Shown in pieces: positions 1-14,383 of a DNA stretch of 21,200 bases. This DNA is from a virus: IMG/VR virus record IMGVR_UViG_3300031616_000202, positions 1-21,200 of that record; one strand, written 5' to 3'. The notes under the pieces are model-generated. The model saw only the letters and a program-made list of their open reading frames with translations. It made no database searches and was not told the origin of the DNA. Position numbers and translations under genes: made by a program. Numbering within the stretch: position 1 is the first letter of the stretch; every line of letters starts with the position of its first letter.

Positions 1-552
1 GGCAGGGTGCTGAGCGTCGTCGCGGATGTGAGCTTCACCGTCGACATCAACTCGGCCGGCTTCACCGCTTTCAGCGGCGACACTGGCGGCACCGTGCGGA
101 CCGCGCCGCCGCCGGCACCGCCGACCGCGCCACCGGTGCCTCCGCCCCCACCGCCACCGCCGCCACCACCGACTGGCGGCGGCGGTTATGGCGGCGGCTG
201 GTGCGTCGCTGACGACACACTGATCCTGCTCGCCGATGGCAGCGAGATCGAGGCGCGCCTCCTCAAGGTCGGCATGCTCGTGAGGACGCAGCATGAGGAC
301 AGCCTCGAATGGGGCGACTATCCCGTCCAGGCGATTGAGCTGGCCTGGCAACCGGTGCTTCGCGCCGAGGGATATCCCCGCGCGACGGCGGAGCATCTGT
401 TCTGGATCGATGGCGCCTGGGTGCGGATGGATGCGATCGGCGAGCCTGACGGTTCGGCCTGGGTGGCGAAGATCGCGGTTGCGGGCGCGCGCACCTATGT
501 CTCGGCTGGCGTTCTGTCGCACAACAAGCGCGCGGACGGGCCTGAGCTATGA
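1..552 (+). CDS. C-terminal part of a phage protein ending in a Hint (intein/hedgehog-like) domain; 5' end outside window
   Basis: The frame is open to base 1, so this is the 3' part of a longer gene; a GTG at 7 is only the first start codon inside the window. Numbering from that GTG, residues 34-64 are a proline tract followed by a glycine-rich linker. Residues 66-173 then carry the Hint signatures: C66 starting [14 protein letters not shown] (block A), a T127-x-x-H130 motif in TAEHLFWI (block B), and the terminal H172-N173 in VSAGVLSHN (block G). Only eight residues follow the Asn, and the +1 residue is Lys rather than Cys, Ser or Thr. That resembles bacterial intein-like domains, which cleave themselves, more than a splicing intein. 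The stop overlaps the next start (ATGA), so the gene belongs to the tail operon. By inference it is a tail or adhesion protein processed by its own C-terminus. The domain call is firm; the role of the missing N-terminal part is unknown. Confidence 0.82.
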
Positions 553-2555
553 GTGTCGCCCGCCTCTTTCGCGTAGGGTCGCCCTATAATGCGAGCGAAC
601 TGGCCGAGCTCGATTTCGAGCAATCGGCGGATACGATGTACCTCGCGCATATCAACCATCCGCCGGCCAAGCTGGTGCGCGGCGGGCATACGAACTGGAC
701 CTTCAGCGCGATCAGCTTCACGCCTACGCTGGCTGCGCCGACCGGTGTCAGCGCGACTGCGCCTGACCCGATCCCGAACCAGGATGCTGACGGCACGCCG
801 CCACACAATGCCTATTTCCCGCAGCCAGCGAGCTATGTCGTAACCTCTGTCGATGACGTATCTGGTATGGAAAGCCGGCCATCGACGCCGGACAGCGCGA
901 CCAACGACCTGACGCTGAAGCGCAACAGCAACACGATCAGCTGGTATGCGGCAACCGGCGCCAGCCGATACCGGGTCTACAAAGCCGATAACACGCAGGA
1001 ATTTGGCTATATCGGCAACACCGTCTCGACCTATTTCGTCGATGATAATATCGGGCCCGACTATTCCGACGGGCCGCCGGTCGGGAGCAATCCGTTCGAC
1101 GACTTCGAAGCCGACTTAACCGGCAGCATCACGGGAACGGTGCTCACCGTCACCGCGATCGCAAGCGGCGAACTCGCCGCGAACAAGACACTGTCGGCAC
1201 CGGGCGTTACGACCGGCACCATGATTACGGGCCAGCTCAGCGGCACGGCCGGGGGCATTGGGACCTATAGCGTGTCGGCATCGCAGGCTGTCGCGAGCGG
1301 TACGATCGTTGCCAGGGACATGGGGAATTATCCCTCGACGGTGACCTTTTTCGAACAGCGATTGCTCTGGGCCCGTACCGCCAACCACCCGAACGCGATC
1401 TATGGTTCGCGATCGGGCAGTTTCGAGAATATGGACATCTCGCGGCCATTGAAGGCGTCGGATTCGCTCAGCTTCGCGCTCGTCGCGGGGCGGGTGAACG
1501 CGGTCAACCAGCTCGTCTCGATGAACGATCTCCTCGCGCTGACGTCGGACGCGATCTTCAAGATCGGGGGCGGGCAGGCGGGCTATATCAGCGCGACCGA
1601 TTTCGTGACGCGGCGGCAGAACGGGCGCGGGGCTTCGCGGCTCTCCCCGCTCGTGATCGACAGCGTGTGCTTCTACCAGACCGCGATCGGCAATGGCGTG
1701 CGCACGCTGGGGTATGAATTCCAGACGGATTCGATCAACTCGAACGATGTGACGATTTTTTCGCCGCACCTGTTCCGGGGGTTCGATATCGTGTCCTGGG
1801 CTTATGCGCAGGAGCCGCGATCGATCATCTGGGCGGCGCGGAACGACGGGGCGTTGCTGTGCTTCACCTGGGAGCAGGAACAGCAGGTCTGGGGCTGGAC
1901 GCTGTGCGAGACGGACGGGCTGGTCGAGAGCGTGTGCGTCATTTCGGAGAATGGCGAGGACCGGCTTTATCTGACCGTGCGGCGCAACGGAAAATTGCTG
2001 ATCGAGCGCATGGCGGCGGCGCGCTGGGACGGTGTCGAGAATAGCTGTTTCCTCGACAGCGCCGTCTCCTATGCCTTCGATGCGCCGGCGACGCGGTTGC
2101 GGAACCTCGATCACCTCGAGGGCAAGACGATCTCGGCGCTGGCGGACGGTAATGTCGTATCGGGCCTGGTGGTGGCGAACGGCGTTGTCGATCTGCCCGA
2201 ACCTGCCTTGATCGTGACCGCGGGGCTGCCTTTTGCGGCGACGATCGAGACGCTGCCGCTTGCCTATCAGGGGCAGGCGGGCTGGACGATCGCCAAGCCG
2301 CAGACCCAGGCCAAGGCGGTGATCCGCGTGATCGAGACGCGCGGGTTGAAGGCCGGGCCGACCGACGCGAAGCTCGAGACCTTGCGGGCGCGCACGACTG
2401 AGATCCTCGGCCAGCCGAACCGGCTCCAGACCGGCCTGCTCGAGACATGGCTGCGGCCCGATATCAATGGCGGCGCGCGGGTGGTGGTGCAATCGAGCGA
2501 CCCGCTGCCGATGACAATTACTGGCATTTACCTTGATCCCACCGCGACAGAATAG
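549..2555 (+). CDS. Podovirus tail nozzle protein (T7 gp12 / tail tubular protein B-like)
   Basis: The 668-residue protein opens with an [18 protein letters not shown]-type segment and has [15 protein letters not shown] followed by an [14 protein letters not shown]-type segment at about residues 259-296. Both are hallmarks of the nozzle family that closes the tail tip of short-tailed phages (T7 gp12 is 794 residues). Residues about 65-185 look like a fibronectin-type-III-like sandwich ([22 protein letters not shown]). Residues about 190-256 are a Gly/Thr-rich beta domain ([16 protein letters not shown] to [14 protein letters not shown]) that recurs as a decoration in many phage proteins and interrupts the nozzle here. 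The start overlaps the upstream stop (ATGA). The stop lies inside the N-terminal codons of the next gene if that gene uses its TTG start. A structural role in the virion tail is well supported; fine function is inferred from family. Confidence 0.8.
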
Positions 2556-3018
2556 GGCGAGGGCGGATATCCGCATCGTGAAGGCGTCGCCGGCTCATGT
2601 CGGGCGGATCGCGAACCGCATGCGAGACGCGGACATCGTCGAGTGTCGCGCGCTTGGACAAAGCCCGAAACAGGCGCTGCGGGAGGGGCTGATCGCTTCG
2701 ACGTTTTGCCTGACCGCGCTGGTCGACGGCTGGCCCGAGGCGATGTTCGGCCTGGTGGTGACGAATGCATTGGCCGGCGAGGGGACGCCGTGGATGCTCG
2801 GCACCGAAGCGATCTATGACCATCCGCGCGCAATGCTGCGCTGGGGCCCGCGCTTTGTGGCGGCGATGCTCGATTCAACTCCAGCGCTCAGCAACCTAGT
2901 GTCAGCCGATAACGCCCGCGCAATCCGTTTCCTGCAGCGGATGGGCTTTCACACAGGGGAGGACAGGATGTTCTTCGCCAATACCGAATTCTTCACCTTC
3001 ACCCAGGAGCGTCGCTGA
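2533..3018 (+). CDS. T7 gp13-like internal virion protein, GNAT fold
   Basis: The 161-residue protein begins [18 protein letters not shown], a GNAT-type first strand and helix, and ends with [16 protein letters not shown], the usual GNAT C-terminal 'N..a..fl...GF' element. This matches the gp13-like family of T7-type phages (T7 gp13 is 138 residues), which is needed for virion morphogenesis and is not known as an acetyltransferase. The position between nozzle and gp14-like genes agrees. The start is uncertain: TTG at 2533 overlaps the nozzle gene by 23 bases and keeps the whole first strand. GTG at 2578 has a purine-rich AGGGCGAGGGCGG stretch upstream but would remove IRI from the strand, so I prefer TTG. 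The stop overlaps the next start (TGATG). Acetyltransferase activity should not be assumed. Confidence 0.78.
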
Positions 3019-3542
3019 TGTGTGTCCCCGCCCTTGCCGTGCCGCTGATGATCGCTTCCACCGTGGTTTCGGCCGGTGGCGCCGTGTTGTCCGGCATCGG
3101 CCAGAAACAGGTGCTCGATTACCAGGCGCAGGTCGCCGACCAGAATTCGAAGCTGGCCGAGAACCAGGCACAGGATTCGATTCAGAACACCAACCTCGAG
3201 GCGCAACGCCGGTATCGCGAGATTTCGCGGACCAAGGGCGTGCAGACCGCGGCGATGGCGGCGAACGGCGTGGACCTCAATTTCGGCAGCGCGGTCGATG
3301 TGCAGCGCGACACCGCCATGATCGGTGCCGAGGATCTCACCCAGCTCTACAAGGCCGGGAACGAGCGAACCAAGGGCTTCGAAATCAACGCCTTCAACTA
3401 TCGATCCCAGGCCGCGGGGGATCGCGCCAAAGGGCGTGGTGCGCTGATGGACGGCATCTTCAAGGGTCTTGGCACCGCACTGAGTGGCGCGTCGCAGGCC
3501 TCGGACATGGCTGGAAAAATGCCAGTAAAAATGGGTGGATAA
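3018..3542 (+). CDS. T7 gp14-like internal virion protein (ejection channel component)
   Basis: This 174-residue protein has a hydrophobic N-terminal helix (about residues 4-28, ALAVPLMIASTVVSAGGAVL). A long Gln/Asn/Ala-rich helical region follows (IGQKQVLDYQAQVADQNSK), and then the family-typical 'R..G...AA.aanGvdl..GSa.dv..dta..g..D......na....g' pattern (KGVQTAAMAANGVDLNFGSA). That is the signature of virion core proteins of the gp14 type, which leave the particle and form the membrane part of the DNA-ejection conduit. T7 gp14 is 196 residues, so length fits. The gene overlaps its neighbour upstream (TGATG) and lies 4 bases before the next likely ATG, so it is translated as part of the operon. 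The family call rests on pattern and gene order, not on an alignment. Confidence 0.72.
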   Translation: MCVPALAVPLMIASTVVSAGGAVLSGIGQKQVLDYQAQVADQNSKLAENQAQDSIQNTNLEAQRRYREISRTKGVQTAAMAANGVDLNFGSAVDVQRDTAMIGAEDLTQLYKAGNERTKGFEINAFNYRSQAAGDRAKGRGALMDGIFKGLGTALSGASQASDMAGKMPVKMGG

Positions 3543-3546
3543 ACCG

Positions 3547-4869
3547 ATGCCAATTGAACAGGATCTTGCGGCGGATCAGACCGCTGGTAACGATGGGCAG
3601 CCCGGCGACGATCAGGGCGTCGCTGTCCAGCCGGCACAATTGTTGAGCGACGTCGGCGATGAGGCCGCCCCGCTCCAACCCGGAAACACGGCCACCTATG
3701 TTTCGCCGGTGGCCACCGCACCAGCGCAGGGCGGCAACCCGGCAATGCGGGTCTTCACGCGCGCGCAGACCGATCTTGCGGTTCAGACTGAGGGCAAGCG
3801 ACCGGCGACGCTCGATCAGGTCGCGCTCGCCGTCCATCATGCGATGGTGGCGGAGGGGTTGAAGCCTCCGCCTCAGCCGCAAGCTGGTGCTTTGACACAA
3901 AAGCTGCCGAATCCGGCGACGCCGTCACCCGCCCCGAGAAGCCTGATTGCTCCAGGACCCAATGCTGCCGCCCCAGTCGCGATGCCGGGATCTGGAGCGC
4001 CCGCCACGCCGGCCCCCTCCGCGCCGTCATCCCTTGCGCCACCTGTGGCCACTCCACCTGTTGTCGCCCCACCTTCTGTCACGCCGCCCGCCGTCGGACC
4101 CGAACGCCCGGGCGCGGGCGGGCCAAAAGGGCAACATGGCAAATTCGGCGACGCATTGAAGGAGTTGATCGAAGCGCCGACGCCAAAGTCTCCACATTAC
4201 CAGCGCGTCTTGAGCGTATTGACCACGCAGGATCCTGACCGGATCGGTTACCTCTCGTCAAAATATGAATCCGGGGGAGCGGGGCCGGAAGCCATATCTT
4301 CCGGCAAGAACGATCCTGGTGGTGTCTCCTATGGAGCCTATCAGCTTTCCTACAACAAGAAGACGCTGCAGGGCTTTCTGGCCAGCGATGAAAACCTGTG
4401 GGCACGCGATTTCGCGGGTCTCAAGCCCAGGACCCCGGCGTTCAACAAGAAATGGAAGGAAATCGCGGCACAGGACCCGGGACTGTTCCGCGATGCGCAG
4501 TTCAGTTTCATTTACCGGACGAAATATGTCGCTGCCGTCGACGCGGTCAAAAACGCGACCGGTGTTGATCTCGACACGATGCCGAATTCAATCCGCGCGG
4601 CGGTCTTTTCAATGGCGGTCCAGCACGGAAGGGCCAGGATCCCGTTGACGAACGCAGTCCTTGCCGCCAACGCCTCGCCCGGAATCGGCGCGCCGGACTA
4701 TAACGAAAAGCTTCTGCATCAGCTTTATGCGAAGCGATCCGACTATGTGATTTCGGTTGCCAAGGTCACAACGAAGCCGGGCGACAAAAAGACGTTGCTG
4801 GATCTCCCCAAGTCCCGCTATCCGAAGGAGGAAATGGACGCTTTCACTGCCTTTCTTTCGGGGCATTGA
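3547..4869 (+). CDS. Virion-associated peptidoglycan hydrolase-like protein with Pro-rich linker
   Basis: I place the start at ATG 3547, which has GGGTGG at 3533-3538 eight bases upstream; the in-frame GTG at 3535 lacks such a site. Numbering from 3547, residues 1-115 are polar and probably helical, and about 116-190 are a Pro/Ala/Ser-rich linker. From about 205 to the end is a lysozyme-fold-like catalytic region. It carries SSKYESGG (E241 as candidate catalytic acid), a GKNDPGGVSYGAYQLS segment and a MAVQHGRA stretch. That 'sKYESgg...GGvSYG.YQl' pattern recurs in phage and spike-associated wall hydrolases of the lysozyme/chitosanase superfamily. In T7-type phages the slot after gp14 holds large core proteins, and one of them (gp16) has lytic transglycosylase activity. 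Here the catalytic unit is separate. Role in cell-wall penetration is inferred; exact bond specificity is unknown. Confidence 0.65.
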   Translation: MPIEQDLAADQTAGNDGQPGDDQGVAVQPAQLLSDVGDEAAPLQPGNTATYVSPVATAPAQGGNPAMRVFTRAQTDLAVQTEGKRPATLDQVALAVHHAMVAEGLKPPPQPQAGALTQKLPNPATPSPAPRSLIAPGPNAAAPVAMPGSGAPATPAPSAPSSLAPPVATPPVVAPPSVTPPAVGPERPGAGGPKGQHGKFGDALKELIEAPTPKSPHYQRVLSVLTTQDPDRIGYLSSKYESGGAGPEAISSGKNDPGGVSYGAYQLSYNKKTLQGFLASDENLWARDFAGLKPRTPAFNKKWKEIAAQDPGLFRDAQFSFIYRTKYVAAVDAVKNATGVDLDTMPNSIRAAVFSMAVQHGRARIPLTNAVLAANASPGIGAPDYNEKLLHQLYAKRSDYVISVAKVTTKPGDKKTLLDLPKSRYPKEEMDAFTAFLSGH

Positions 4870-5832: not shown

Positions 5833-8679
5833 ATGCCCGTCGTTCCTACCGAAGAGAACCGGGTCGGCATTGCCGGCGTCACTGGTGAAAAGCTCGTCCC
5901 CGGGGATTTCTCGGGGTCGGGCCTCGATGCGCTCGGCGCGGGGATGCAATCGCTCGGACAGGCCGGCCAGAAGGTCGCCGTTGCGCAGCACCAGCAGGCG
6001 ATCGAGGACGATGCCGCGGTCAAGAAAGCATGGAACAATTATGCGGAGCAATCCCGCACGATCCGTGCCGGCTTTTATGCGCGGCAGGGCTCCGATGCGG
6101 CCTCTGCGCTGAAGCCAGCGACAGACGCGTTGCGCGAAACGGTCGACGGGTTGCGCGACGGGCTGAGGGGCAAACGCCAGCGTGGGATCTTCGATCGATC
6201 GGTTCCAGAGCGCCTCATTGCCGATGTGGCGAAGATGGACGATCATGTCGCGGCGCAGAATGTCGTGGACCAGCAAAAACAAAGCCTTGGTGTCCAGGGC
6301 AATGCCAGGGGCGATGCGGTCGAGAATGCCGGCGATCCGGAGCAGTTCCAAAGGCATGTCGATACGGGCATCGAGACGATGCGGACACGGGCGCTGTTGC
6401 AGGGAAGGGACCCGGCCTCGGTCAATCATGAGGCGGCGCATTTTCTGTCGTCGATCCACCGCGACGTCGCTGATGGGCTGACGGCCCATGATGCGCTCGC
6501 CGCGCATCAATATCTTCGCGACAAGGCCGGCGAGATGATCGCGCCGCACCGTGACGAGGTGGCGCGCTCGCTCGCGCCCGTGCTTGGCGAGGCGCAGGCT
6601 GTTGCTGATGTCGATATGCGCGATGCGCTCCGATCACCGACCGCGCCCGTGACGCCGCCCGGCGATATCGCGGCGGTGACGGGGCGGATGCTCACCGTCG
6701 AGTCAGCCCGGCAGGCGGATGGGGGAGGGGTGCGTGCCGCCGCTGTCTCGCCGGGGCCTGTGAACGAAAAGGACAATGTAGCCGGGAGCGACGCTCCGGG
6801 CCGTGGGGCCAATGCCGCTCGTACCGCCGAGCTGGCCGCGCTGATGCGCCATTATCGCGGCGACGCGGCGAAAGCATGGGCGGCGTCGCTGCAGGGGCAG
6901 GCGGGCGTGGATGCGCTGGTCGCGAACCACGGCGACGCCTGGTTCGGCGCGCTGCCCGAAGATGCGCGCAAGGCGGTGACGGCCAATATGACATTGCTCG
7001 GCGCCGCGACGTCGCCGCGCACCCCGCCGACGCCGGAAGATCATGCGTCCACATCTTCGTGGATCCAGGCCCAGGACTGGAAGGACGATCGCAAGCAGCT
7101 GGCGCATGAGGAACTGCACAAGCGCGTCGGCCTCGCCAACCGGCAGCGCAGCGCGGCACAGGATGCTGCCAAGGAAACGGGCCTCGCGCTTGCGCGCACA
7201 CTTGGCCCGGGGTTCATCTCGGTCAACCAGCTGCCGCCGGCGGTGCGCCGCGATCTCCCGGACGATGCGCTTGCCGCACTGACGCTCCGCGCCGATCGCA
7301 ATGTGCATCCGGTTACGGTCGCGCCGCACGGCGATGTCGCGACGAAGCTCAACCGAATGGCCGCGACGGATCCCGAAGGGTTCGCGAAAGTGGATCTGCG
7401 CCTGGAGCAGGACCGGATGTCGCCCGGGGAATATAGCTCGCTCGAGGACACGCAAAAGGGGATGGCCAGCTATCCGCCCGCGCCAGCTACCGTCACCCAG
7501 CGCAATCTCTGGGACGAAATCCGCCGGAACGGGCTGGATGATGGTGCGACGCCCGGCGCGGGAGCGGTTCCGCCGTCGCCGGACGAAGCGCAGGTGGACC
7601 ATCTGGCCAATGTGGCGTCCATTCCCGAGGCGTTGAGGGGTACCGCCGCGATCAAAGGGACTGTGCGGGAGATGTTGCGAAGGGACTGGACACCGGACCA
7701 AATTCAGAACCAGCTCTACGAAGCCTATGCGCGGCGCTCGCTTGATCTGAGCTCCGGCTATCATCCGGGTGAGGTCGGAATCCTGCCCGGGGGAGGGAAT
7801 CGGGACGAAATCGTGCCGGAGGCGCAGTTCAGGAACATCGCGTCCGGGCCGGATGGTCAGATTACGTTCGACCCCAATGGCCGGCCGGTCGTCGGCTCGG
7901 ATGGCGCTTCGCCCTCGGACGCGATCCTGAAGTCGCTTTTCCCGACACCACAGCCTGTCAAGAAACGGGTGCCTTCCAATCAACTCGACTATGGGGATTT
8001 CAGCACTTTATGGGAGGCCGAGCGCAAAAAGGGCGTCAAGCTGCCCAAATTTGTACCGGCTGAAGCATGGAAGAAATTTGCGCCGGATGCGGACAAGATG
8101 CATCCAGAAACGGACGCTCGCCCTTATGAGCGGATAACGCTGCACCATACGGGTAGCGAAGATACGCCGGAGGCCGTGGAGATCCTGCATGGCCATGAAT
8201 CGCGACTGCATAAAATTGGCAGAATGATCAATAGTCCCGGCAACCAGGAAGATTACGACACTTATGGTGATGTCGGATATCATTTCCTGATCGGTCGCGA
8301 TGGCACTATTTATGAAGGCAGGTCACTTGCCTATCAAGGCGCGCACGTAATGGATCAGAACGAGCGGAATATCGGAATCGCCATTCTTGGGGATTATTCG
8401 CGTCAGCCTCTGAATTCCGCACAGATACGTTCAGTGAAATATCTGATCATGGAACTCAATCGCGCATATCACGTGAGTACTAATGCTGGAGGCCTGCCCT
8501 ATGTTTTCACGCACCGGGAATTGGCACCCAGTGGGAAATTTGCGAGGCCGGATGAACTCGTAGGAGCGCAGAAACAGACAGATGAAATCGAAGCCTGGAG
8601 CCGGCGCTTTCTTCCGCCTCTGGCGAAGGACCACGAATGGGTCTTGCAGGCGCTCCCACCAGCCAGAAAGGGTCGCTGA
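5833..8679 (+). CDS. Large phage ejection-type protein with degenerate transglycosylase region and C-terminal amidase (Amidase_2/PGRP-like)
   Basis: The product has 948 residues. Residues 1-275 are Ala/Asp-rich and helical (KKAWNNYAEQSRTI, LRETVDGLRDGLRGKRQRG), like internal core proteins. Residues about 277-385 look like a decayed SLT transglycosylase: the 'tVES' motif is present at E290 and AVSP at about 305, but the usual 'GlMQ..P' segment is missing and the usual AYN reads AWA (348-350). Residues about 370-636 are a core repeated at 9570. Residues about 764-930 are an Amidase_2/T7-lysozyme-type domain: LHHT (H771/H772), GYHFLIGRDGTIYEGR, NIGIAILGDY and THRELAP (H894). In T7 lysozyme the third zinc ligand is a Cys in the ACP motif; here the matching place reads ARP (R905), so metal binding may be altered. 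Translation is probably coupled to the 13-codon ORF just upstream. An internal virion role is inferred from operon position; the amidase fold is well supported. Confidence 0.8.
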   Translation: MPVVPTEENRVGIAGVTGEKLVPGDFSGSGLDALGAGMQSLGQAGQKVAVAQHQQAIEDDAAVKKAWNNYAEQSRTIRAGFYARQGSDAASALKPATDALRETVDGLRDGLRGKRQRGIFDRSVPERLIADVAKMDDHVAAQNVVDQQKQSLGVQGNARGDAVENAGDPEQFQRHVDTGIETMRTRALLQGRDPASVNHEAAHFLSSIHRDVADGLTAHDALAAHQYLRDKAGEMIAPHRDEVARSLAPVLGEAQAVADVDMRDALRSPTAPVTPPGDIAAVTGRMLTVESARQADGGGVRAAAVSPGPVNEKDNVAGSDAPGRGANAARTAELAALMRHYRGDAAKAWAASLQGQAGVDALVANHGDAWFGALPEDARKAVTANMTLLGAATSPRTPPTPEDHASTSSWIQAQDWKDDRKQLAHEELHKRVGLANRQRSAAQDAAKETGLALARTLGPGFISVNQLPPAVRRDLPDDALAALTLRADRNVHPVTVAPHGDVATKLNRMAATDPEGFAKVDLRLEQDRMSPGEYSSLEDTQKGMASYPPAPATVTQRNLWDEIRRNGLDDGATPGAGAVPPSPDEAQVDHLANVASIPEALRGTAAIKGTVREMLRRDWTPDQIQNQLYEAYARRSLDLSSGYHPGEVGILPGGGNRDEIVPEAQFRNIASGPDGQITFDPNGRPVVGSDGASPSDAILKSLFPTPQPVKKRVPSNQLDYGDFSTLWEAERKKGVKLPKFVPAEAWKKFAPDADKMHPETDARPYERITLHHTGSEDTPEAVEILHGHESRLHKIGRMINSPGNQEDYDTYGDVGYHFLIGRDGTIYEGRSLAYQGAHVMDQNERNIGIAILGDYSRQPLNSAQIRSVKYLIMELNRAYHVSTNAGGLPYVFTHRELAPSGKFARPDELVGAQKQTDEIEAWSRRFLPPLAKDHEWVLQALPPARKGR
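6937..7740 (+). repeat. Core repeat, copy 1 (inside the amidase-tipped protein)
   Basis: This 804-bp stretch aligns without gaps to 9570-10373 at a constant offset of 2633 bases. By eye the encoded segments differ at about 21 of 268 residues. Homology stops abruptly after the codons for QLYEAYARRS; the downstream sequences (amidase versus protease-like domain) are unrelated. The frame is the same in both copies, so a crossover anywhere in the core would join the full N-terminus to the other C-terminal domain in frame. Confidence 0.95.
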
Positions 8680-9452: not shown

Positions 9453-11213
9453 ATGGAATTAATGTGCCGCGGAAAGTGCCCGTCCCTTCCATCTGAATAC
9501 TACTCGCTTCCGTTTGGCGCGAACCGCGGCGGTTGCCGATGTCGATATGCGCGATGCGCTCTGGTAGGCGCGTGGTTCGGGGCGCTGCCCGAGGGTGCCC
9601 GCAAGGCGGTGACGGCCAATATGAGATTGCTCGGCGCCGCGACGTCGCCGCGTACCCCGCCGTCGCCGGAAGATCATGCGTCGACATCTTCGTGGATCCA
9701 GGCCCAGGACTGGAGGGACGATCGCAAGCAGCTGGCGCATGAGGAACTGCACAAGCGCGTCGGCCTCGCCAACCGGCAGCGCACCGCAGCGCAGAATGCA
9801 GCCAAGGAGACGGGCCTCGCGCTTGCGCACACGCTTGGCCCGGGGTTCATCTCGGTCAACCAGCTGCCGCCGGCGGTGCGCCGCGATCTCCCGGACGATG
9901 CGCTTGCCGCGCTGACGCTCCGCGCCGATCGCAATGTCCATCCAGTTACGGTCGTGCCGCATGGCGATGTCGCGACGAAGCTCAACCGGATGGCTGCGAC
10001 AGATCCCGAAGGGTTCGCGAAAGTGGATCTGCGCCTGGCGCAGGACCGGATGACGCCTGGGGAATATAGCTCGCTCGAGGACACGCAAGAGGGGATGGCC
10101 AGCTATCCGCCCGCGCCCGCCACCGTCACTCAGCGCAATCTCTGGGACGAGATCCGTCGCAACGGGCTGGATGATGACGCGACGCCCGGCGCGGGAGCGG
10201 TTCCGCCATCGTCGGACGAGGCGCAGGTGGAGCATCTGGCCAATGTCGAGACCATTCCCGAGGCGTTGAGGGTAACCGACGCGATCAAAGACACTGTGCC
10301 GGAGATGTTGCGAAGGGACTGGACCCCGGACCAGATCCAGAACCAGCTGTACGAAGCCTATGTTCGCAGGTCGACTGGCTTGAATTCGGGACCAGTGGAT
10401 CAGGAGGGCAGCTCGGATCAGTTGGGGTCGGATCAGTGGGGGAAACCTTTAGCGAACGATCAGCCTGGAGTGGAGGACAACGCCACCGGCACCGAGCAGA
10501 CCGCACAATTGATTCCGGCCGGTTATGGCAAGGCCAAGCGGCGCACGCCGAAAGCGAAACAACCGTCAGCTGCGGACGCCCTGCCAGAATGGGCAAGGCG
10601 TCGAAATCTCAGCGTGTGGCGAAGCCCGGTCTATCTCAGCACCTCGCAAGACTCGCCTGACAAGGACATCTACGACGGTCTCAAGCGAATGGGCAACCCT
10701 GATGACTTGACCATTATTTTCTCTCACGGCTCTCCCGAATCCGGCAAAACAACGGATAAATCACGCGGGCAAGACCCGGTGACCAGGCGCGATGACAGAG
10801 AGATGGATGCGAAAGATATATACGTGACTTTACGACAAAAGAATTTCGTTCAAGGTACTCCCATTCTTCTTACAAGTTGCTTTGGGGCCAATGACGATGC
10901 AGCACGACAATTGTCGGCTATGACAGGCGGCATCGTTTATGTTGCCAAAGCCTATGTCCTGGCGCCATCCGCTGCAAATCATCGGTACGATCTGTCCGTT
11001 CATACCGACGGCCCGAGAAAGGGCGAAAGATCGGGCTACGCCAAATTCAATAACGGCAAGGAAGTTCCGTCGGAGCTGCTGGCGCTAAGGTACAACGAAG
11101 ACACGCACCAATGGAGTAGGCTTACCCGAACGCCACCAGCGCCCGTGGGTGATCGAGTCCCCGCACCGCTAAGCGGGTGGGCTAGGGTTTGGCATGATCT
11201 GACCAGGTGGTGA
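9453..11213 (+). CDS. Second cassette: truncated core fused to a caspase-like (clan CD) protease-type domain
   Basis: The frame runs 586 codons from ATG 9453, which has no clear ribosome site. Residues 1-39 (MELMCRGKCPSLP...) match nothing in the first copy. In fact 9532-9561 matches copy-1 bases 6601-6630 but is read here in a different frame, because 298 bases are deleted relative to copy 1. Residues 40-307 are the shared core. After a Lys/Pro/Gln-rich linker, residues about 385-560 carry DLTIIFSHGSPESG (H425) and PILLTSCFGAN (C476). Two hydrophobic strands ending in S-H-G and S-C-x-G, about 50 residues apart, are typical of clan-CD/CHAT-type cysteine proteases found in effector proteins. 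The unit may be a silent donor cassette, a pseudogene, or translated from the weak start. The protease assignment is by motif only; substrate unknown. Confidence 0.6.
   Translation: MELMCRGKCPSLPSEYYSLPFGANRGGCRCRYARCALVGAWFGALPEGARKAVTANMRLLGAATSPRTPPSPEDHASTSSWIQAQDWRDDRKQLAHEELHKRVGLANRQRTAAQNAAKETGLALAHTLGPGFISVNQLPPAVRRDLPDDALAALTLRADRNVHPVTVVPHGDVATKLNRMAATDPEGFAKVDLRLAQDRMTPGEYSSLEDTQEGMASYPPAPATVTQRNLWDEIRRNGLDDDATPGAGAVPPSSDEAQVEHLANVETIPEALRVTDAIKDTVPEMLRRDWTPDQIQNQLYEAYVRRSTGLNSGPVDQEGSSDQLGSDQWGKPLANDQPGVEDNATGTEQTAQLIPAGYGKAKRRTPKAKQPSAADALPEWARRRNLSVWRSPVYLSTSQDSPDKDIYDGLKRMGNPDDLTIIFSHGSPESGKTTDKSRGQDPVTRRDDREMDAKDIYVTLRQKNFVQGTPILLTSCFGANDDAARQLSAMTGGIVYVAKAYVLAPSAANHRYDLSVHTDGPRKGERSGYAKFNNGKEVPSELLALRYNEDTHQWSRLTRTPPAPVGDRVPAPLSGWARVWHDLTRW
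9532..10373 (+). repeat. Core repeat, copy 2, with 298-bp internal deletion
   Basis: 9532-9561 matches 6601-6630 (one difference in 30), and 9570-10373 matches 6937-7740. The offset changes from 2931 to 2633 between the two blocks, so 298 bases covering the degenerate transglycosylase part of copy 1 are missing. Because 298 is not a multiple of three, upstream and core frames no longer agree. This shows that copy 2 descends from a longer gene and has lost its normal 5' part. Confidence 0.9.
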
Positions 11214-13672: not shown

Positions 13673-14383
13673 TTACGCGGGGCGCCGAGCCTCGACATAT
13701 TGAGAAAGTCGAGGATCGTGATTGAAGCGGTCGGCGTGCGAATCCAGAAAGCCGAGCACCGAACCCGGATCCTTGTACCCATAATGCACGCAGTCGGAAA
13801 AGCCGGCTGCGCCGAGCGCGCTCAACAGCTCCGCTCGCGAGTAGATATGGGCATGGCCATGTTCGTAAAAGGTTGAGTTCAGGAGATCGCACGAGACTGA
13901 GCCATCCAGGATGCCGGCGCTCAGCCAGTCGAGATCGGGCGTGGCGACTCGCATCGTTCCGCCTGGCTTCAGGATCCGGAAGCATTCACGGAGAAGCGCA
14001 AACCCGCGATCCTTGTCGACATGTTCGATCAGCTCCTCGAGCAGGATGAGATCGACCGACCCGCTTGTGAATGGCAGGGTCCTCATGACATTCACATAGC
14101 TGTCGGCGCGGGGATCGATATCCACCGTCAACGCGCCCTCGATGGTGTTGCCGCCGCCGCCGAGATTCAGCAGGCGCGAGCCCTGCGCACTGGCTTCCCA
14201 TTTCCGGCGATAGGCTTTCGAGACCGTCGGACCTAGCAGCGGCCACAGGAACGGAATCTTGGTGCTGGCGAAGCGCGCAACCGCATGCAACGCGCCGTAG
14301 CGTGCGCGGTAGAGCTTCAGCCGGTTGAGCAGGCCGGGCGGGGTGGCCGTAGGCAATGAGAACGGCAGGGAAGGATTCTGCAT
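13673..14383 (-). CDS. SAM-dependent methyltransferase (Methyltransf_11-type), likely cargo gene
   Basis: The 236-residue protein has a class-I methyltransferase fold. LLNLGGGGNT (residues 71-80) is the glycine-rich SAM loop and LTVDIDP the acidic end of strand 2. LPFTSGSVDLILLEELIEHV (103-122) matches the 'lPF.d.sfD.v....vleHv' signature, and FRILKPGGTMRVATPDLDWL (135-154) the next strand and hairpin. Residues 1-60 are basic and hydrophobic with LKLYRARYG. Such proteins near surface-polysaccharide genes often modify sugars or related small substrates; nothing here fixes the substrate. It is the only leftward gene between the late operons, a common arrangement for a moron expressed from its own promoter. 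The ATG at 14383 has no clear ribosome site. The fold is confident; the role is not. Confidence 0.8.
   Translation of the reverse strand: MQNPSLPFSLPTATPPGLLNRLKLYRARYGALHAVARFASTKIPFLWPLLGPTVSKAYRRKWEASAQGSRLLNLGGGGNTIEGALTVDIDPRADSYVNVMRTLPFTSGSVDLILLEELIEHVDKDRGFALLRECFRILKPGGTMRVATPDLDWLSAGILDGSVSCDLLNSTFYEHGHAHIYSRAELLSALGAAGFSDCVHYGYKDPGSVLGFLDSHADRFNHDPRLSQYVEARRPA

Follow-up and report, generated by a model that had tools for sequence, protein, structure and literature searches.

To our knowledge, it is still an open question whether BIL-type Hint domains have a biological job. Dassa and colleagues have reportedly found fractured genes with split inteins. Among the other closely related systems, the A-type BILs are described as forming a thioester and cyclising their Asn, with mostly cleavage as the outcome (PMC4031507, PMC7664689), and Tyr at +1 has been described for one BIL (PMC4031507). 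BIL2 is reported to form an isopeptide bond with the side chain of a Lys, to conjugate its N-terminal partner to other proteins and to be activated by zinc (PMC8616854). Here, we analysed a stretch of 21,200 nucleotides from a virus (positions 1 to 21,200 of IMG/VR record IMGVR_UViG_3300031616_000202, hereafter the window), in which a Hint domain is found at the end of the first ORF, and compared it with related tail nozzles and with other Hint domains carried by tail proteins.

The Hint domain of the window

The first ORF (1..552, plus strand, 183 aa) has an open 5' end, the gene being truncated by the contig end, and it overlaps the second ORF. The features of this region are as follows.

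1..102, plus strand: C-terminal remainder of an FCCH-like domain of the nozzle N-half (alignment of the N-halves of L003, L004, L010 and L012; PF16190 at E 2.5e-7 in the L004 N-half)
103..201, plus strand: flexible linker, Pro-rich and then Gly-rich, common to the N-halves without Hint (pLDDT of the L004 linker about 45-50)
202..525, plus strand: Hint domain (Cys1 at 202-204; TxxH at 385-396, with Thr127 at 385-387 and His130 at 394-396; His-Asn at 520-525)
526..552, plus strand: post-Asn tail KRADGPEL and stop (Lys +1 at 526-528; TGA at 550-552)
549..2555, plus strand: C-half of the tail nozzle, whose gene is split (phrog_376 positions 105-706; overlaps the N-half at ATGA)

Residue numbering from the GTG at base 7 reproduces Cys66, Thr127, His130 and His172-Asn173, and each key position named by the sequence-only reading (C66, T127-x-x-H130, H172-N173) lies at exactly the residue given there. 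Its description of the surroundings was likewise borne out, as the reading frame has Lys at +1 (526-528) and eight residues between the Asn and the stop (550-552), and the alignment of N-halves places a Pro/Gly-rich linker (103..201) before the Hint. The domain is compact, with 108 residues, and has Arg in block F, versus His in 65 of 75 distinct Hints.

It is practically certain that the ORF ends in a Hint fold. The AF2 model of bases 190-549 contains the fold with a mean pLDDT of 92.0 and a pTM of 0.84, and the post-Asn tail falls below a pLDDT of 50. When this model was compared with the PDB by Foldseek, BIL2 (6y75) was matched at E 1.6e-7 and the C. thermocellum BIL (2lwy) at 8.2e-6, and VIA-align gave Z scores of 15.8 to 6fre, 1mi8 and 6y75, 14.3 to 2lwy and 13.9 to hedgehog (1at0); the nearest solved folds are thus BIL2, the DnaB mini-intein and the C. 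thermocellum BIL. A 29-row Hint profile also found 6y75 (3.7e-10) and 2lwy (1.1e-7) among PDB sequences. The claim of a complete Hint at the C-terminal end of a podovirus-type tail-operon protein is therefore supported in agreement by AF2, structure comparison and profile. Pfam gave no Hint family for the window protein at E<=1; at the same threshold, Intein_splicing was found in 15 and PT-HINT in 10 of the 29 family members. Relatives were found in three viral contigs (81-91% identity). The Hint is under purifying selection: when 14 loci were compared in all 91 pairs, the median dN/dS was 0.32 (0.070 between the window and L002), and the median for the nozzle C-half is 0.21.

Nozzle halves and their relatives

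Searched against solved structures, the N-half profile matched residues 14-105 of the tail nozzle 8ck1 (E 9.7e-21) and the C-half profile matched residues 114-820 (E 4.1e-87), and therefore the split lies between about residues 105 and 114. PHROG 376 divides in the same manner in L004, where the first ORF covers profile positions 2-101 and the second 103-706. From these matches, the nozzle gene is almost certainly encoded as two halves, with the split at the position of the Hint. As the first nozzle residues (about 100) lie outside the window, which holds only the C-half of the nozzle and the FCCH end, the N-terminal part that the sequence-only reading had called unseen was taken from relatives with a complete N-terminus, including L003 (404 aa) and L004 (340 aa), and proved to be nozzle residues 1 to ~100 together with the FCCH domain. 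The N-half in these relatives starts with nozzle residues ~1-105, continues with the FCCH domain and a Pro/Gly arm, and may carry a Hint, which is followed by a tail of 5-14 residues. When the L004 N-half was modelled with AF2, FCCH and Hint were mostly at 84-95 and the linker was low, and residues 1-96 had block means of only 25-54, which fits a segment that needs the C-half to fold, other causes being possible.

Among 56 split junctions (window included), the ORFs overlap by 4 nt in 23 and by 1 nt in 30, with neither arrangement in three. In L004, a minus-strand gene (2295-2867), which we take to resemble the manganese exporter gene mntP, separates the halves, and the same region in L006 is arranged likewise; since a separate gene stands between them in L004, the halves need no fusion. 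In the window, a stop codon lies at 543-545 in the frame of the C-half, and therefore a -1 fusion would need a slip within two codons. Gly/Thr-rich, repeat-like inserts were also observed among close relatives at varying sites in either nozzle half (N-halves of L003 and L027; C-halves of the window and L002).

For the distribution of these arrangements, the best 80 of 509 nozzle relatives from a C-half scan were examined with the window (81 loci), split and contiguous calls being made by HMM; a repeat with seeds from the retrieved loci alone gave identical counts. In this sample of the best 80 relatives and the window, both halves of a split nozzle are present in 55 of 81 loci, of which 21 carry a Hint and 34 end after the arm, whereas the HMM found no Hint in any of the 21 contiguous nozzles. 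The nozzle N-terminus is off the contig in the other five loci, two of them with Hint. The Hint-less N-halves finish after the same Pro/Gly arm as the Hint-bearing ones. Because 34 of the 55 split nozzles do without it, the Hint is dispensable for nozzle assembly, and its role must be accessory. On a nozzle tree of 75 rows (the 81 C-halves minus two under 380 aa and four duplicates), presence of the Hint changes at least five times and the contiguous state three times. The contiguous nozzle of L043 has an internal Met exactly at the start site of the C-half of split relatives, as a re-fusion of the halves would leave. Among bacterial genomes, the Hint was found in 4 of 397 in the family of the source genome of L006 (E<=1e-5) and in 1 of 398 in its phylum (E<=1e-8). 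One of the four genomic Hints, L103, belongs to a split nozzle embedded in a 6.2 Mb contig and is therefore probably in a prophage.

The Hint family and its conserved lysine

Scans with Hint queries and an HMM gave 122 matches, which were reduced to 75 distinct core sequences, L105 being left out; candidates in the wide scans were first filtered by a short conserved motif, so that distant Hints may be missed, and the motif-prefiltered scan of genome contigs gave one locus. Besides nozzles, the carriers are J-type tail fibres (PHROG 5616/31; L118, L119 and L122, with the Hint at the end) and other tail proteins that the Hint ends (PHROG 1101 in L125 and L133; PHROG 2048 for the second Hint of L122), and in L137 the Hint lies in a protein of PHROG 358, a family of unknown function. 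Of ten proteins scanned, three matched no family. The Hint is terminal, with 5-14 residues after the Asn, in 52 of 75 sequences and internal or off the contig in 23; the seven internal rows of the 32-row Hint tree form one clade (support 100/99).

Two further observations concern the carriers. L122 is a single phage contig with two Hint-bearing tail proteins (422-1507 and 1904-4354) from different PHROG families. In L095, L098 and L099, the same Hint family is found near the N-terminus of 1765-aa proteins of virion type, where its flanks are Pro-rich and its junction reads SHNKT.

The active site is invariant, with Cys1 in 73 of the 73 sequences that reach it and the block-B His and His-Asn in all 75. 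At +1, the 75 distinct Hints have K (32), I (23), L (10), V (4), A (3), Y (2) or M (1), and none has Cys, Ser or Thr. Ordinary splicing is unlikely, as the sequence-only reading had said, because there is no canonical +1 nucleophile. The same reading treated Lys +1 as simply a missing nucleophile. That part stands, as no nucleophile is present at +1, but Lys occupies +1 or +2 in 72 of 75 Hints and is probably part of the chemistry. This proportion is kept after clustering (54 of 57 at 80% and 32 of 35 at 60%), and Lys occurs within +4 in 75 of 75 and in only 4 of 415 residues at +5 to +12; these counts describe this Hint family alone, whose rows are related. The exceptions (L154, L177 and L179) have their first Lys at +3 or +4. 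On the Hint tree, which has few columns and related rows, the Lys position class changes at least ten times, and when well-supported branches alone are used, at least six changes are kept for each of the two main classes. Because the class changed so often, the Lys near the junction is not one inherited string. As a control for Lys after His-Asn, ordinary pretoxin HINT domains were sought in 199 genomes; one genome had such a domain (L105), which was unusable for the comparison.

Neighbouring genes

Downstream of the nozzle C-half are T7-type internal virion proteins (PHROG 308 and 418), and the annotated neighbours in the window are as follows.

2533..3018, plus strand: internal virion protein (phrog_308; the match to the T7 gp13 model stays below the Pfam cut-off)
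3018..3542, plus strand: T7 gp14-like internal virion protein (phrog_418)
3535..4869, plus strand: Pro-rich protein with a VgrG3-like C-terminal domain (PF21277)
5833..8679, plus strand: large protein with an Amidase_2 domain

The gene adjoining the gp14-like gene (3535-4869 in the window, 3672-5366 in L002 and 6994-8344 in L003) has a Pro-rich N-terminus and C-terminal regions that differ, that of L002 having no Pfam match where its window counterpart has the VgrG3-like domain; judged from these sequences, the variation looks as if enzyme modules were swapped. Window positions 6936-7235 and 9569-9868, in ORFs 5833-8679 and 9453-11213, are a partial duplication (94% over 300 nt), by which the central part of the large amidase protein also precedes another C-terminal domain, in ORF 9453-11213; this domain has no Pfam match and, by eye, has short HG and SC motifs that are caspase-like. 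A class I methyltransferase gene (13673-14383, minus strand; PF08241, E 1.5e-8) lies on the opposite strand in the tail region and is possibly an accessory gene.

Discussion

We propose that the N-half of the nozzle carries an autoprocessing domain similar to an A-type BIL, which would transfer the nozzle arm to a Lys. First, the two halves would assemble non-covalently into one nozzle subunit, and since the halves would pair in this way, the arm would leave the subunit at the split and present the Hint. Second, Cys1 and the end of the arm would be linked as a thioester, and cyclisation of the Asn would release the post-Asn tail. Third, the most likely acceptor of the acyl group would be the conserved Lys at +1 or +2, whose side-chain amine would then form an isopeptide bond, or alternatively a Lys of another virion or surface protein. 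As an outcome, the Hint would be removed and the nozzle arm left capped or conjugated. The sequence-only reading had held cleavage or crosslinking by the Hint to be possible, and the domain is probably active in autoprocessing. We give the explanation as a whole slightly less than even confidence, the role of the Lys as acyl acceptor is a little more doubtful than that, and use of the Hint for conjugation of the tail is rather unlikely. Lys-directed transfer is proposed as the likeliest chemistry because of the chemistry of BIL2 and the conserved Lys, with simple trimming as the main rival. Four points count against the explanation: if the Lys acts only in cis, transfer in terminal Hints would merely yield a short branched peptide; 34 of the 55 split nozzles have no Hint; three of the 75 Hints have their first Lys only at +3 or +4; and the window Hint departs from the usual block-F His.

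In plain A-type maturation, thioester hydrolysis and Asn cyclisation would trim the Hint, and the Lys would aid only Asn cyclisation or folding. Trimming would leave a Gly-rich end identical to that of the Hint-less N-halves, which do finish in the same Pro/Gly arm, and BILs are reported to yield mostly cleavage products (PMC7664689, PMC4031507). However, trimming leaves unexplained why a Lys is kept within two residues despite at least ten shifts of its position, and we regard it as rather unlikely to be the full explanation.

Two other explanations are improbable. The Hint may stay uncleaved as a displayed surface domain of the tail, and its active site would then be retained through common descent or for a binding function; its place on flexible arms of several unrelated tail proteins agrees with this, but the invariance of Cys1, the block-B His and His-Asn over 75 distinct and highly diverged Hints does not. 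Equally, there is only a small chance that the Hint is the remnant of a selfish or domesticated mini-intein that survives harmlessly at gene ends. Its presence is patchy, with at least five changes on the nozzle tree, and it sits in variable Pro/Gly regions, as BILs are reported to do (PMC7765530). Against a remnant stand purifying selection and the invariant active site and Lys, and no homing endonuclease insert was found in the 29-row alignment. A decayed intein is countered by the dN/dS values and the invariant residues.

A remnant of a pretoxin HINT from a polymorphic toxin that lost its toxin domain is very improbable: PT-HINT was matched at E<=1 in 10 of 29 family members, but 52 of 75 Hints stop 5-14 residues after the Asn, tails too short for a toxin, and all carriers with an assigned identity are tail proteins. 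Rejoining of the halves by protein splicing, whether canonical or in trans, or by a ribosomal frameshift, suggested by the location of the Hint exactly at the nozzle split, can hardly hold, given that none of the 75 Hints has Cys, Ser or Thr at +1, that the C-halves begin with nozzle sequence and have no C-intein part, and that 34 split nozzles lack a Hint entirely, the frameshift being rejected because of the stop in the C-half frame at 543-545 and the intervening gene in L004. We also rejected a ligation in which the C-half, once its Met is removed, would offer an N-terminal Ser, since this residue is Pro in L012 and Gly in many others.

If Lys-directed transfer is true, the nozzle arm would be welded to itself, to its neighbours or to the host surface, which would be an ATP-free, ubiquitin-like conjugation in a phage tail. 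A two-gene nozzle in which a self-processing domain is gained or lost at one point would be a new way to build or modify an injection machine, and the Hint with its near-constant Lys on the nozzle N-half hints at possible trimming or gluing of the tail by the virus itself. If the Lys is the acceptor, the large family of compact variants would be a natural isopeptide-forming system that needs no ATP, and it would allow a direct test of whether BIL-type domains have a biological role. By title and abstract, in a search with thin coverage of subscription literature, no paper was found on a Hint at the tail nozzle or on this nozzle split. More speculatively, these Hints may be a distinct class of lysine-directed domains on flexible arms of tail proteins, in which a Lys amine would replace the +1 Cys/Ser/Thr and self-excision would end in an isopeptide; we think this somewhat less likely than the acceptor role itself.

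Compared with the known systems, the locus has several common and several different features. The homology to the T7 gp12-like tail nozzle (PHROG 376; PDB 8ck1) spans both halves taken together, but the T7 gp12-like nozzle is one polypeptide, whereas the nozzle here is two overlapping ORFs, with FCCH, the Pro/Gly arm and, in some loci, the Hint where the gene is split. Fractured genes with split inteins are alike in that a phage gene is broken at a Hint element; here, in contrast, the N-half has the whole Hint and the C-half no part of it, and the Hint is absent from 34 of 55 split loci. A class 1 intein has a +1 nucleophile, found in none of the 75 phage Hints, and interrupts a host protein that continues in a C-extein, whereas the window Hint is followed by an eight-residue tail and a stop. 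The pretoxin HINT (PF07591) is related in sequence, as the matches in 10 of 29 members at E<=1 indicate, but no toxin domain follows the phage Hint (eight residues to the stop in the window), and its named carriers are tail proteins. With A-type BILs such as 2lwy of C. thermocellum, the phage Hint has in common the Hint fold, Cys1, the His-Asn end and the lack of a +1 nucleophile; it differs by the conserved Lys at +1 or +2 and by its place on tail proteins, where it recurs at a single site in the split nozzle. A-type BILs are located in variable regions of non-conserved proteins; the proteins that carry the phage Hint are conserved tail parts, and the Hint sits at their variable Pro/Gly end. 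The best match by both profile (3.7e-10) and Foldseek (1.6e-7) is BIL2 of the Tetrahymena thermophila BUBL1 polyubiquitin locus (6y75, 6tmm), in which H48 and H125 form a zinc-binding His pair. Both Hints are placed after a folded domain, BIL2 is reported to form a Lys isopeptide, and the Lys within +4 of 75 of 75 phage Hints may or may not correspond to its acceptor; BIL2, however, is eukaryotic and lies between ubiquitin-like domains, whereas the phage Hint is carried on a tail arm.
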